64,000 bases of DNA from Flavobacterium sp. YJ01 (GTDB lineage Bacteria > Bacteroidota > Bacteroidia > Flavobacteriales > Flavobacteriaceae). Of this stretch, positions 5,917 through 32,486 are shown piece after piece; position 1 is the stretch's first letter; every line of letters starts with the position of its first letter. Location of the stretch: positions 3,534,001-3,598,000 of the forward strand of contig NZ_CP119757.1 in the NCBI RefSeq assembly GCF_029320955.1, given 5' to 3'. The notes beneath the pieces were generated by a model. That model ran no database searches. It was given only the letters and a program-made list of their open reading frames with translations, and was not told the DNA's origin. The position numbers were made by a program, and so were the translations under genes.

Positions 5917-6675
5917 ATGGGACAAAAGACAAATCCAATTGGAAATAGACTTGGTATCATCAGAGGATGGGACTCAAACTGGTATGGTGGAAATGATTAC
6001 GGTGATAAATTAGCCGAAGATCACAAAATCAGAAAGTATATCCACGCTCGTTTATCAAAAGCTAGTGTATCTAAAGTAATCATCGAGAGAACTTTGAAAC
6101 TTGTAACCGTTACTATCACTACTGCTAGACCTGGTATCATTATCGGAAAAGGTGGGCAAGAGGTAGACAAGTTAAAAGAAGAACTTAAGAAAGTTACTGA
6201 CAAAGAGGTTCAAATCAACATCTTTGAAATTAAAAGACCTGAGTTAGATGCTTATCTTGTGGCGACAAGCATCGCTCGTCAAATCGAAAGCCGTATTTCT
6301 TACAGACGTGCAATCAAAATGGCTATTGCTGCTTCTATGCGTATGAACGCTGAAGGTATCAAAGTTTTGATTTCTGGTCGTTTGAATGGTGCTGAGATGG
6401 CGCGTTCGGAAGGTTTCAAAGAAGGTAGAATTCCTCTATCAACTTTCAGAGCTGATATTGATTATGCTTTGGCTGAAGCTCACACTACTTACGGTAGAAT
6501 GGGTATCAAAGTATGGATCATGAAAGGTGAAGTTTACGGTAAGAGAGAGCTTTCTCCACTTGCTGGGATGGACAAAAAACAATCTGGTACAGGTGGTGGT
6601 AAAGGTGGAGATGCTCCTAGAGGCAAATCTAACTTTAACAAAGGCGGTAAACCAGATGCTCGTAAAAGAAAGTAA
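5917..6675 (+). CDS. rpsC: 30S ribosomal protein S3
   Basis: 252 aa. S3 forms the mRNA entry channel and helicase site with S4 and S5. It begins [20 protein letters not shown]. The KH domain has the motif [18 protein letters not shown], followed by the C-terminal [24 protein letters not shown] glycine- and lysine-rich tail ([19 protein letters not shown]) extends the family core and is probably disordered. Confidence 0.98.
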
Positions 6676-14243: not shown

Positions 14244-14297
14244 AAGGTAGAACATAGATTATCGAAGGATTAGACCTGAATTCATAATTTCTACCTT
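14244..14297 (+). promoter_or_regulatory. Candidate structured leader before rpsD
   Basis: AAGGTAGAA (14244-14252) is perfectly complementary to TTCTACCTT (14289-14297) and encloses a 36-base loop with a possible inner GG/CC pairing. A run of eight T residues follows four bases later, just before the rpsD ATG at 14313. This arrangement could be an attenuator or an S4 binding site. S4 autoregulates its operon in other bacteria, but nothing in the sequence proves it here. Confidence 0.45.
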
Positions 14298-30450: not shown

Positions 30451-30915
30451 ATGAATTGGTACGTAGTTTATACAAAACCGAAATGGGAAAAAAAAGTTGC
30501 TGATAAACTCCAACAATTAGGAATAAAGTGTTATTGTCCTTTAGTTACTCAGGTTAAACAATGGTCAGACAGGAAGAAGAAAATAGAAGTGCCACTTTTT
30601 AATTCTTATGTTTTTGTTCAAATAGCAGATACAGAAAGAAGTTCGGTTTTTCAAGTTGCGGGAGTAATTCGATATTTGTTTTGGTTGGGCAAACCAGCTA
30701 TTGTAAAAGATGAAGAGATTAACATTATAAAAACGAATCTTGAATCTCCGAATATTAGTGATGTTTCAGTTTCAACTTTACAAGTCGGGGACAAAATCAA
30801 ATTAGAATCGGGAGCATTTAGTAATCAAAGTGCAATCGTGCAAGAAGTATCTAATAATTATTATACTCTTGTATTAGAAACTTTAGGCTGTGTTTTGAAA
30901 ATAAAATATAAATAA
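30451..30915 (+). CDS. upxY: UpxY-family transcription antiterminator (NusG/RfaH paralogue)
   Basis: 154 aa. The NusG N-terminal domain is recognisable: MNWYVVYTKPKWEKKVADKL, CYCPLVTQVKQWSDRKKKIEVPLFNSYVFVQI, read as WSDRKKKIEVPLFNSYVFV. A C-terminal KOW-like part begins LQVGDKIKLESGAFSNQSAIV. In Bacteroides each capsule locus begins with a UpxY that lets polymerase read through the long operon by acting on its leader. Here it is the last gene of the first operon and sits just before the terminator, promoter and structured leader of a 26-kb operon, a natural target. Confidence 0.93.
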   Translation: MNWYVVYTKPKWEKKVADKLQQLGIKCYCPLVTQVKQWSDRKKKIEVPLFNSYVFVQIADTERSSVFQVAGVIRYLFWLGKPAIVKDEEINIIKTNLESPNISDVSVSTLQVGDKIKLESGAFSNQSAIVQEVSNNYYTLVLETLGCVLKIKYK

Positions 30916-30937
30916 CCTCGTTATTTAATAGGAAAAT

Positions 30938-30982
30938 GGCAGAAGAGAGAGTCTTTTTAGATTTTTTTCTTCTGTTTTTTTT
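30938..30982 (+). terminator. Intrinsic terminator after upxY
   Basis: CAGAAGA (30940-30946) pairs with TCTTCTG (30968-30974), extended by two G-U pairs, and is followed by a run of T residues. It separates the first polysaccharide operon from the next promoter. Confidence 0.75.
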
Positions 30983-31060
30983 ATAAAGTAATTATTTACA
31001 GCCTGATTAATAAGGTGTTGTGCATGAGTGTGTTTTTATTAACAATTTGTTTTTGATGAT

Positions 31061-31105
31061 TACGGGAAACCGTATTGAATAAGTTGACTTATTGTACTAT
31101 ATTTG
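31061..31105 (+). promoter_or_regulatory. Promoter of the long polysaccharide operon, with upstream palindrome
   Basis: TTG at 31075-31077 and TATATTTG at 31098-31105 are exactly 20 bases apart, a full consensus match. Immediately upstream, TACGG-GAAA-CCGTA (31061-31074) is a perfect 5-bp inverted repeat that abuts the -33 TTG and could be an operator. Transcription should start about 31110. Confidence 0.75.
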
Positions 31106-31111
31106 CCGAAA

Positions 31112-31196
31112 ATGATTAATTTAGGTAGCTGAGACCAAACAATGGGACTCGGAACGGCGAAGCCGTGAGTTTTAATGACCTAAATAAATTAGAAAA
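31112..31196 (+). ncRNA. Structured leader RNA with ops-like GGTAGC
   Basis: The 85-base leader between the promoter and the first gene has a long-range stem ATTTAGGT (31119-31126) with ACCTAAAT (31178-31185). Inside it is a hairpin ACTC-(GGA)-ACGGC-GAA-GCCGT-GAGT (31147-31170). GGTAGC at 31124-31129 equals the core of the enterobacterial ops site recognised by RfaH, and upxY lies just upstream. The segment 31140-31170 is GC-rich in a very AT-rich setting, suggesting selection for structure. Antiterminator loading is the favoured role; an unrecognised riboswitch is the alternative. Confidence 0.6.
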
Positions 31197-32486
31197 ATGG
31201 AATTAGAAAAAAATGTAAAAATTGCGGTTATTGGTTTAGGCTATGTTGGTTTGCCTTTAGCCCGATTATTTGCTACAAAATATTCAGTAGTTGGCTTTGA
31301 TATAAATGAATCAAGAGTCAATTCTTTAAAATCTGGAACAGATACTACTTTAGAGGTTGAAGACGAAGTTTTACAGCAAGTTTTGGTTACAGATCTTAAT
31401 AAAAAAACAGGACTTTACTGTACTACTTCATTAAACGATATTGAGAATTGTAATTACTATATAGTGACAGTTCCTACTCCAGTTGATAGAAATAATAGAC
31501 CAGATTTAACTCCTTTATATAAATCGAGTGAGACAGTTGGGAAGGTATTAAAAAAAGGAGATATTGTCATTTATGAGTCAACTGTATATCCTGGAGTTAC
31601 AGAGGAGCAATGTGTTCCTGTTTTAGAAAGAGTTTCTGGCTTAAAGTTCAACGAAGATTTCTTTGCGGGATATTCTCCAGAAAGAATAAATCCGGGAGAC
31701 AAAGAACATACGGTTGAAAAAATATTAAAAGTTACATCTGGTTCAACTCCTGAAATTGGAGTAAAAGTGGATGCGTTGTATAAAGCAGTTATTACGGCTG
31801 GAACACATTTAGCGCCAACAATAAAAGTTGCAGAAGCGGCAAAAGTTATTGAGAATTCGCAACGAGATATTAATATTGCATTTGTTAATGAATTAGCCAA
31901 AATATTCAACTTAATGAATATTGATACGCAAGAAGTTTTAGAAGCGGCATCTACAAAGTGGAATTTCTTACCTTTTAAACCAGGTCTTGTAGGTGGACAC
32001 TGTATAGGAGTAGATCCTTATTATCTGGCACAAAGAGCACAAGAGTTTGGATATCATCCTGAAATAATTTTAGCAGGAAGACGTTTAAATGATAGCATGG
32101 GAGAATATGTAGCTTCACAGATTGTGAAACTAATGATCAAAAAAGGAATTTCTGTTAACGGAGCAAATTTGTTAATGCTTGGGATTACTTTTAAAGAAAA
32201 CTGTCCAGATGTTAGAAACACTAAGATTGTTGATGTAATAAAAGCATTGAAAGATTACGGAATCGCCGTTACTATTTTTGATCCTCTCGCCAATGTTGAA
32301 GAAGTAAAAAGAGAGTACAAATTAGAAACAATAAATAATTTGCCTGCTGAAAAATTTGATGCTTTAGTATTAGGAGTTGCCCATTCGGAATTTCTTGATA
32401 TTAATTTTTCAAGTTTGCAAAAAGATAAAAGTTTAATTTATGATGTAAAAGGAGTTTTAGGGTCTTTGGCTGATAATAGGCTTTAG
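31197..32486 (+). CDS. UDP-N-acetylhexosamine C6-dehydrogenase (TviB/WbpA-like)
   Basis: 429 aa nucleotide-sugar dehydrogenase. IAVIGLGYVGLPLARLFATKY is the NAD motif (read as GLGYVGLPLA). YESTVYPGVTEE and FFAGYSPERINPGDKEHT are typical of the TviB/VipA branch acting on UDP-GlcNAc or UDP-GalNAc. The catalytic Cys lies in GLVGGHCIGVDPYYLA and the C-terminal domain has GITFKENCPDVRNTKI. It is the first gene of the long operon. With the C4-epimerase at 27970 it would make UDP-GalNAcA. Confidence 0.93.
   Translation: MELEKNVKIAVIGLGYVGLPLARLFATKYSVVGFDINESRVNSLKSGTDTTLEVEDEVLQQVLVTDLNKKTGLYCTTSLNDIENCNYYIVTVPTPVDRNNRPDLTPLYKSSETVGKVLKKGDIVIYESTVYPGVTEEQCVPVLERVSGLKFNEDFFAGYSPERINPGDKEHTVEKILKVTSGSTPEIGVKVDALYKAVITAGTHLAPTIKVAEAAKVIENSQRDINIAFVNELAKIFNLMNIDTQEVLEAASTKWNFLPFKPGLVGGHCIGVDPYYLAQRAQEFGYHPEIILAGRRLNDSMGEYVASQIVKLMIKKGISVNGANLLMLGITFKENCPDVRNTKIVDVIKALKDYGIAVTIFDPLANVEEVKREYKLETINNLPAEKFDALVLGVAHSEFLDINFSSLQKDKSLIYDVKGVLGSLADNRL

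Follow-up and report, generated by a model that had tools for sequence, protein, structure and literature searches.

Leaders of capsule operons in Bacteroides that depend on UpxY were reportedly described by Chatzidaki-Livanis in 2009, and Saba et al. are said to have found in 2024 (Nat Commun 15:10862) that UpxY recognises the paused polymerase via the non-template DNA and the upstream duplex, with hairpins in the nascent RNA assisting. In the accessible passages of the published work, UpxY of Bacteroides fragilis prevents premature termination in leaders that lie 5' of upxY (PMC7819879), and the Bacteroides studies are cited together with a statement on contacts to the upstream duplex (PMC12632263, PMC12691694). 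For RfaH, the excerpts available state that G5 and T6 of the ops element are read in a non-template DNA hairpin (PMC5995543, PMC11001881), that the pocket for T6 is formed by H20, R23, Q24 and R73 (PMC5995543) and that the TG at positions 11-12 of ops12 (GGCGGTAGCGTG) is common to all validated E. coli RfaH targets (PMC5995543). LoaP from Bacillus velezensis is described, in the part of PMC12691694 that was accessible, as a specialised NusG paralogue for which an RNA hairpin in the leader is needed for antitermination, and the hairpins of NusA-stimulated pauses are placed 10-13 nt upstream in the accessible text of PMC12288461. In the literature searched (titles, abstracts and passages, with few subscription papers covered) we found no description of the element reported here, nor one of how UpxY finds its operons outside Bacteroides.

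The window, a stretch of 64,000 nt, stems from the 5.48-Mb, single-contig genome of Flavobacterium sp. YJ01 and contains an upxY gene, a leader and a polysaccharide operon with the following features:

30451..30915, + strand: upxY, NusG-family antitermination factor of 154 aa (Pfam NusG PF02357, E 1.7e-20)
30940..30982, + strand: hairpin CAGAAG..CTTCTG and eight T, just 3' of upxY and paired in the 281-nt fold; likely the intrinsic terminator of the upstream operon
31061..31074, + strand: palindrome TACGGGAAACCGTA, directly 5' of the -33 element, with at most 1-2 changes across the 30 genus leaders
31075..31105, + strand: TTG-N20-TATATTTG (TTG 31075-31077, TATATTTG 31098-31105), conserved in the 30 genus leaders and, by its consensus, a Bacteroidetes-type promoter
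31119..31126, + strand: 5' arm of the closing stem P1, overlapping GGTAGC; covariation only in Flavobacterium upxY leaders
31129..31136, + strand: 5' arm of hairpin P2, covarying with the 3' arm
31143..31152, + strand: 3' arm of P2 (31145-31152) with flanking bases, TGGGACTCGG; consensus start TGKGACT
31156..31167, + strand: putative ops-like core GGCGAAGCCGTG, near-invariant in the 30 genus leaders
31178..31185, + strand: 3' arm of P1; covariation only in Flavobacterium upxY leaders
31197..32486, + strand: first gene behind the leader, nucleotide-sugar dehydrogenase (Pfam UDPG_MGDP_dh domains)

The Pfam assignment bears out a reading of the DNA made from its sequence only (hereafter the sequence-only reading), in which the upstream gene had been taken as upxY, a NusG paralogue. 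RfaH proteins are the best solved relatives of this UpxY (E 1.4e-09), with RfaH residues H20, R23, Q24 and R73 aligning with K19, Q22, L23 and A70, of which K19 keeps the positive charge. Export, Wzz-like and nucleotide-sugar genes lie 5' of upxY (Pfam), and the hairpin with T-run at 30940-30982 was not among the sites reported by a simple terminator scan. A separate promoter 3' of upxY starts the next polysaccharide gene series, which comprises 26 kb according to the count of the sequence-only reading. The leader spans approximately 85 nt from a putative start near 31112 to the ATG at 31197, in agreement with the 85 bases given before. The promoter had been described as a full-consensus one; its E. 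coli-like TTGACT (31084-31089) is unconserved across the genus set, where TAGACT and TAGAGT, among others, take its place, and it is TTG-N20-TATATTTG that is conserved instead. The palindrome upstream of it is possibly an activator site: combined with TTGA, it has its only zero-mismatch match in its own genome at this position, and with two mismatches allowed 5 sites were found there versus 6 for the control. Elsewhere in the window, at 14257-14289, lies an S4-Flavobacteria ribosomal protein leader (Rfam RF03141).

A DNA search of 249 genomes of the genus gave a match in 70 at E up to 0.01 (in 40 at E below 1e-8), and the best 30 of these 70 matching genomes formed the genus leader set. Conserved across these 30 leaders are the promoter, the palindrome with few changes, P2 and GGCGAAGCCGTGA; in all 30 cases a UpxY ORF ends 238-260 nt 5' of the core and a GYVGLP-type dehydrogenase ORF is located 3' of the element. 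The conserved part of the leader itself is a bipartite element (31129-31167) consisting of the P2 hairpin, a short spacer and GGCGAAGCCGTG. P2 pairs 31129-31136 with 31145-31152, with one A-A mismatch in this genome, and the core contains a candidate mini-hairpin GGC-GAA-GCC (31156-31164) followed by a putative U|G pause signature at 31166/31167, the TG at core positions 11-12 (T31166 G31167) being found in 30/30 leaders. The pairs of P2 and the core are standard in 91.5% of cells across the 30 leaders, with none of 500 column shuffles matching the percentage paired, the cells changed on both sides or the covariation score, while for the other two of the five measures 43/500 and 164/500 shuffles do as well. 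The RNAalifold consensus of the genus leaders shows a small covariation term (-0.53). That the leader is structured, as had been claimed, is supported by the fold of bases 31110-31196, which is better than that of 200/200 shuffles (z -4.2). The internal hairpin drawn at 31147-31170 merges P2 (31129-31152), which had not been listed, with the mini-hairpin of the core at 31156-31164. Through the four outer ACTC/GAGT pairs of that drawing the 3' arm of P2 may pair with the sequence just past the core in a possible competing fold; one of these pairs forms in 11/30 genus leaders and the other three in 27-29/30.

We assign the ops-like core to GGCGAAGCCGTG at 31156-31167 and not to GGTAGC. In the sequence-only reading GGTAGC (31124-31129) was the ops core, masked by the closing stem, and strand exchange between the two served as the switch. 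The hexamer is present and its six bases are identical to part of ops; the closing stem 31119-31126/31178-31185 also exists, as a perfect 8-bp match in this genome, and covaries in related leaders, with the observed value reached in 0/200 permutations for 10 Flavobacterium upxY leaders. However, GGTAGC is kept in only 7/30 genus leaders (31124 is A in 11/30 and 31128 is T in 21/30), and the stem loses its support beyond Flavobacterium upxY leaders, the same test giving 15/200 for all 84 instances and 36/200 for the 74 that are not such leaders (the Flavobacterium records L115, L119, L127 and L135 being grouped with the 74 where qualifying); P1 was therefore rejected as a general feature of the element. 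Furthermore, all four named residues of the RfaH T6 pocket differ in this UpxY. GGTAGC is found in 1.4% of mononucleotide shuffles of the leader and 12 times in the window, both strands included, and its occurrence at 31124-31129 is best read as chance. We find an ops core at this position scarcely credible, and the proposed switch is not supported, GGTAGC being poorly conserved and the stem lacking support beyond Flavobacterium upxY leaders.

Beyond the genus, the element was followed from the motif side. A covariance model (R1) searched in 397 genomes of the family matched 8 of them, from 6 genera, at E up to 0.05; because the filters were strict and scoring was limited to 10 candidates per genome, this is an under-count. 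Since the distant matches share GKGACT, six bases and GGCGAAGCCRT, they led to the linear pattern GKGACT-N6-GGCGAAGCCRT. In 395 phylum genomes this pattern was found at 23 sites in 21 genomes compared to 13 for the reversed pattern; set against this control, the number of sites carries little weight by itself. Over the genome collection the pattern returned at least 119 stretches, all of which were used, with at least 120 instances; among the 120 matches listed, sorted by hand on their record titles, 88 belong to Bacteroidota and 32 lie elsewhere or are of uncertain placement (L122 and L151, of uncertain phylum, are counted outside Bacteroidota in the full 119-stretch tally). At least 35 of the 88 listed Bacteroidota instances are accompanied by a UpxY ORF, always on the same strand and in 32 cases within 1 kb, a figure that is a lower bound given that no stretch exceeds 8 kb and that some instances are close to the end of theirs. 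None of the 32 other listed matches has a UpxY ORF in its stretch, as judged by a profile from 17 motif-linked UpxY ORFs that may miss NusG paralogues of other phyla. Because UpxY has only 119 matches in 198 phylum genomes, the nearness of motif and UpxY is very unlikely to arise by chance. Two further properties separate the listed matches: 7/88 Bacteroidota instances versus 22/32 others lie inside an ORF of more than 100 aa, and T at position -1 of the motif, which was outside the search pattern, occurs in 96% of the 85 distinct Bacteroidota instances versus 25% of the 32 others. The T at core position 11 is part of the search pattern outside the genus set; G at position 12 is found in 59% of the 85 distinct Bacteroidota instances and in 44% of the chance set.

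Linkage to polysaccharide genes extends to instances distant from upxY. Among the matches listed, 56 have no UpxY within 1 kb and 44 of these have a following ORF; 11 of the 20 next genes tested are clearly polysaccharide genes (four Poly_export, three UDP-glucose/GDP-mannose dehydrogenases, two of epimerase or GDP-mannose dehydratase type, one UDP-galactopyranose mutase and one glycosyltransferase). The other nine comprise two Asn_synthase genes, one GFO_IDH_MocA gene and six of neither type or without family; genes of the Asn_synthase and GFO_IDH_MocA families often occur in polysaccharide clusters. The element is also carried by Bacteroidales MAG records (JAISCQ, JAISEJ, JAIRLS; L075, L102, L109, L124, L158 and L185), two of which have more than one copy; for the next genes of L075, L102, L109 and L158 no polysaccharide family was matched. 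In Pontibacter anaerobius (L141, around 6440-6512) two apparent copies stand in tandem just 5' of the UpxY gene. The bases around the element in L085, labelled as an Azovibrio restrictus MAG, resemble those of Bacteroidota instances, and our impression is that this record is possibly mis-binned.

The instances collected in this manner allow the pairing of P2 to be assessed. For the 85 distinct Bacteroidota instances, pairing of the 60 upstream bases with the 12-base arm gave a mean best energy of -8.86, compared to -7.04 (sd 0.21) with permuted arms, and the observed value was matched in 0/200 permutations; the 32 non-Bacteroidota or uncertain instances gave 6/200 in the same test. After removal of similar sequences (73 left) the values were -8.93 versus -7.07 (0/500), and the DNA 70-130 nt upstream of these 73 sequences gave a null result (418/500). 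Loops of P2 range from 1 to 50 nt under this simple pairing model, and the 3' arm starts with the consensus TGKGACT. P2 is very probably an evolved RNA hairpin. Covariation of the stems, which the sequence-only reading had proposed to check, is hence found for P2 and, within Flavobacterium upxY leaders, for the closing stem, but not for the latter beyond them.

The reverse view is given by the UpxY side, where a search with this UpxY yielded 119 matches in 110/198 phylum genomes; 112 of these matches were examined as loci (six that lie no more than 900 bases from a contig start and G751 were left out). Three patterns were set beforehand and counted within 1.5 kb on either side: the strict pattern occurs at 7/112 loci on the coding strand and at 0 on the other, GGCGNAGCCRT at 13/112 and 0, and GGCGNAGCC at 23/112 and 5. 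In 400-nt flanks, GAYT-N5-7-GGCGNAGC, a form loosened after inspection of the UpxY loci, occurs at 16/112 on the coding strand, with 0 on the other and 0 as reversed pattern, and GGCGNAGC alone at 27/112, with 5 on the other strand and 2 reversed. The 16 element-bearing loci comprise five from Flavobacterium, including the present one, and eleven from six other families, and P2 pairing at these 16 sites exceeds that of 500/500 permutations. The bipartite element is missing from the 400-nt flanks of the remaining 96/112 loci. Mapped on the UpxY tree, the core has a clustered but patchy distribution (16 changes versus a shuffled mean of 24.4; 0/500), and it appears that a subset of the UpxY family is served by the element. 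No shared element was found in the remaining UpxY loci; words enriched 3' of upxY, mainly in loci of family f18, look like coding sequence. The genome studied here encodes a second UpxY (L039, G000:C1:4601345-4601803; 54% identical), on whose strand the element is absent within the 1.5 kb examined, and this protein may use another signal.

That the 5' leader is structured and conserved in Flavobacterium, with P1, P2 and a core hairpin, would also fit a ligand-binding riboswitch or a ribosomal-protein-type leader unrelated to UpxY. The sequence-only reading had itself named a match to a known riboswitch family as an argument against its proposal, and no Rfam riboswitch family matched the leader: with Rfam 15 no family reached its gathering score there, the S4 leader being the sole match in the whole window, and at E up to 10 the region 30900-31260 gave five matches, all sub-threshold, of which RAGATH-28 (17.7 bits against a threshold of 45.3, E 0.63) and SCARNA7 overlap the leader. 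In 15 further element-bearing loci no family reached threshold at the element either, with only tRNA and the Bacteroid-trp leader found, both away from it; the latter (RF01692) lies at L095:7528-7647 in Leeuwenhoekiella aequorea. The terminator scan of the leader reported as its sole terminator-like site the core itself, in a number about as expected by chance, and no separate terminator was apparent 3' of the core. Together with the confinement of P1 to Flavobacterium upxY leaders and the same-strand linkage to UpxY across several families, this makes a leader of the riboswitch or ribosomal-protein type very improbable.

We consider it probable that the leader is instead a hairpin-assisted pause at which the neighbouring UpxY loads onto RNA polymerase in an RfaH/ops-like manner. 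The role as loading site for the adjacent UpxY, already suggested in the sequence-only reading, gains comparative support from the presence of UpxY at 30/30 genus leaders and the linkage in other families. During transcription, P2 would form in the nascent RNA where this emerges from the exit channel, and the polymerase would pause near U31166/G31167, with the non-template strand of the bubble presenting GGCGAAGCC, possibly folded into a GNA mini-hairpin. UpxY, produced from the gene just 5', would bind the paused complex via the exposed core, perhaps also reading the TGKGACT duplex just behind the bubble, and would then travel with the polymerase and counteract pausing and termination along the long polysaccharide operon. 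P2 ends 14 nt from the presumed pause base U31166 in this leader and 11-14 nt from it in 75/85 instances, close to the distance of 10-13 nt at which the accessible part of PMC12288461 places the hairpins of NusA-stimulated pauses; since 74% of permuted arms end at positions 9-12 as well, this spacing is weak evidence.

Comparison with RfaH and ops in E. coli reveals that the core agrees with ops12 at 8/12 positions (ungapped), with GGCG and CGTG shared, that the GGCG....CGTG core is able to form a small hairpin in both, and that the TG at core positions 11-12 is present here too; in both systems the factor is a NusG paralogue and the targets are polysaccharide operons. In contrast to ops, G5 and T6 of GGCGGTAGCGTG are absent, with AAGC in the middle of the core versus GTAG, and this UpxY retains not one of the four T6-pocket residues named above; the element further differs in its phylum, in the covarying RNA hairpin directly upstream and in the factor gene lying beside its target. 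UpxY would most likely load with a base specificity of its own.

Whether the core would be read as DNA or RNA bears on a second explanation, in which it is not non-template DNA but folded RNA, namely P2 together with the GGCGAAGCC hairpin in its RNA form, that recruits UpxY, in the way LoaP is recruited on the dfn leader. The core hairpin folds under both DNA and RNA parameters and the energies favour neither. The GGCGAAGCT cores of seven UpxY loci, in which C is replaced by T, keep a G-U pair in RNA and are predicted to be unfolded as DNA; they lean towards the core being read as RNA, and their existence weakens the DNA-hairpin reading. P2 must in any case form in RNA, with strong covariation and arms too far apart for one bubble, and the requirement of LoaP for an RNA hairpin in its leader (PMC12691694, accessible part) provides a precedent, this locus sharing with LoaP/dfn a specialised NusG paralogue and a leader RNA hairpin. 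On the other hand, the core is constant in sequence and displays no covariation, and it resembles an ops-type pause. The dfn leader, in the passages at hand, has a UNCG tetraloop hairpin and a NusA-dependent terminator, whereas here the leader has no UNCG loop, the loops of P2 vary in length, the loop of the core is GNA and no terminator was found. Recruitment by RNA alone is accordingly rated as unlikely, if clearly less so than a riboswitch, and UpxY loading at a hairpin-assisted, ops-like pause remains our preferred reading.

With regard to the UpxY capsule leaders of Bacteroides, a UpxY family factor and a polysaccharide operon are common to both, and the UpxY-family gene lies beside the leader here as well (30/30 genus loci and at least 35/88 listed Bacteroidota instances). 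The nascent RNA hairpin at the recognition site, reported in the Bacteroides work of Saba et al., is matched here by the covarying P2, whose part in pausing would be analogous. A comparable mechanism has thus reportedly been described for Bacteroides, and the Flavobacterium element would be a variant of it. The Bacteroides leader lies 5' of upxY according to the accessible part of PMC7819879, whereas the present one lies 3' of upxY and has its own promoter; the arrangement with the leader upstream of upxY does exist in element-bearing relatives such as L080, L105 and L141.

In more general terms, we tentatively propose, as an idea that could well prove wrong, that a pause hairpin of his type in the RNA and a mini-hairpin of ops type in the non-template DNA (d-GCGAAGC class) have been fused at near-fixed spacing, and that across several Bacteroidota branches they form a docking site for some members of the UpxY family. 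The element hints at a link between hairpin pauses and recruitment of the ops type; it offers an exact, testable target beside its factor in a culturable genus and could allow the UpxY regulon to be predicted from sequence. If the proposal of a fused docking site is true, Bacteroidota would have converged on, or would share ancestry with, ops-type recognition, and UpxY would also act in trans on polysaccharide operons that lack a upxY gene of their own.
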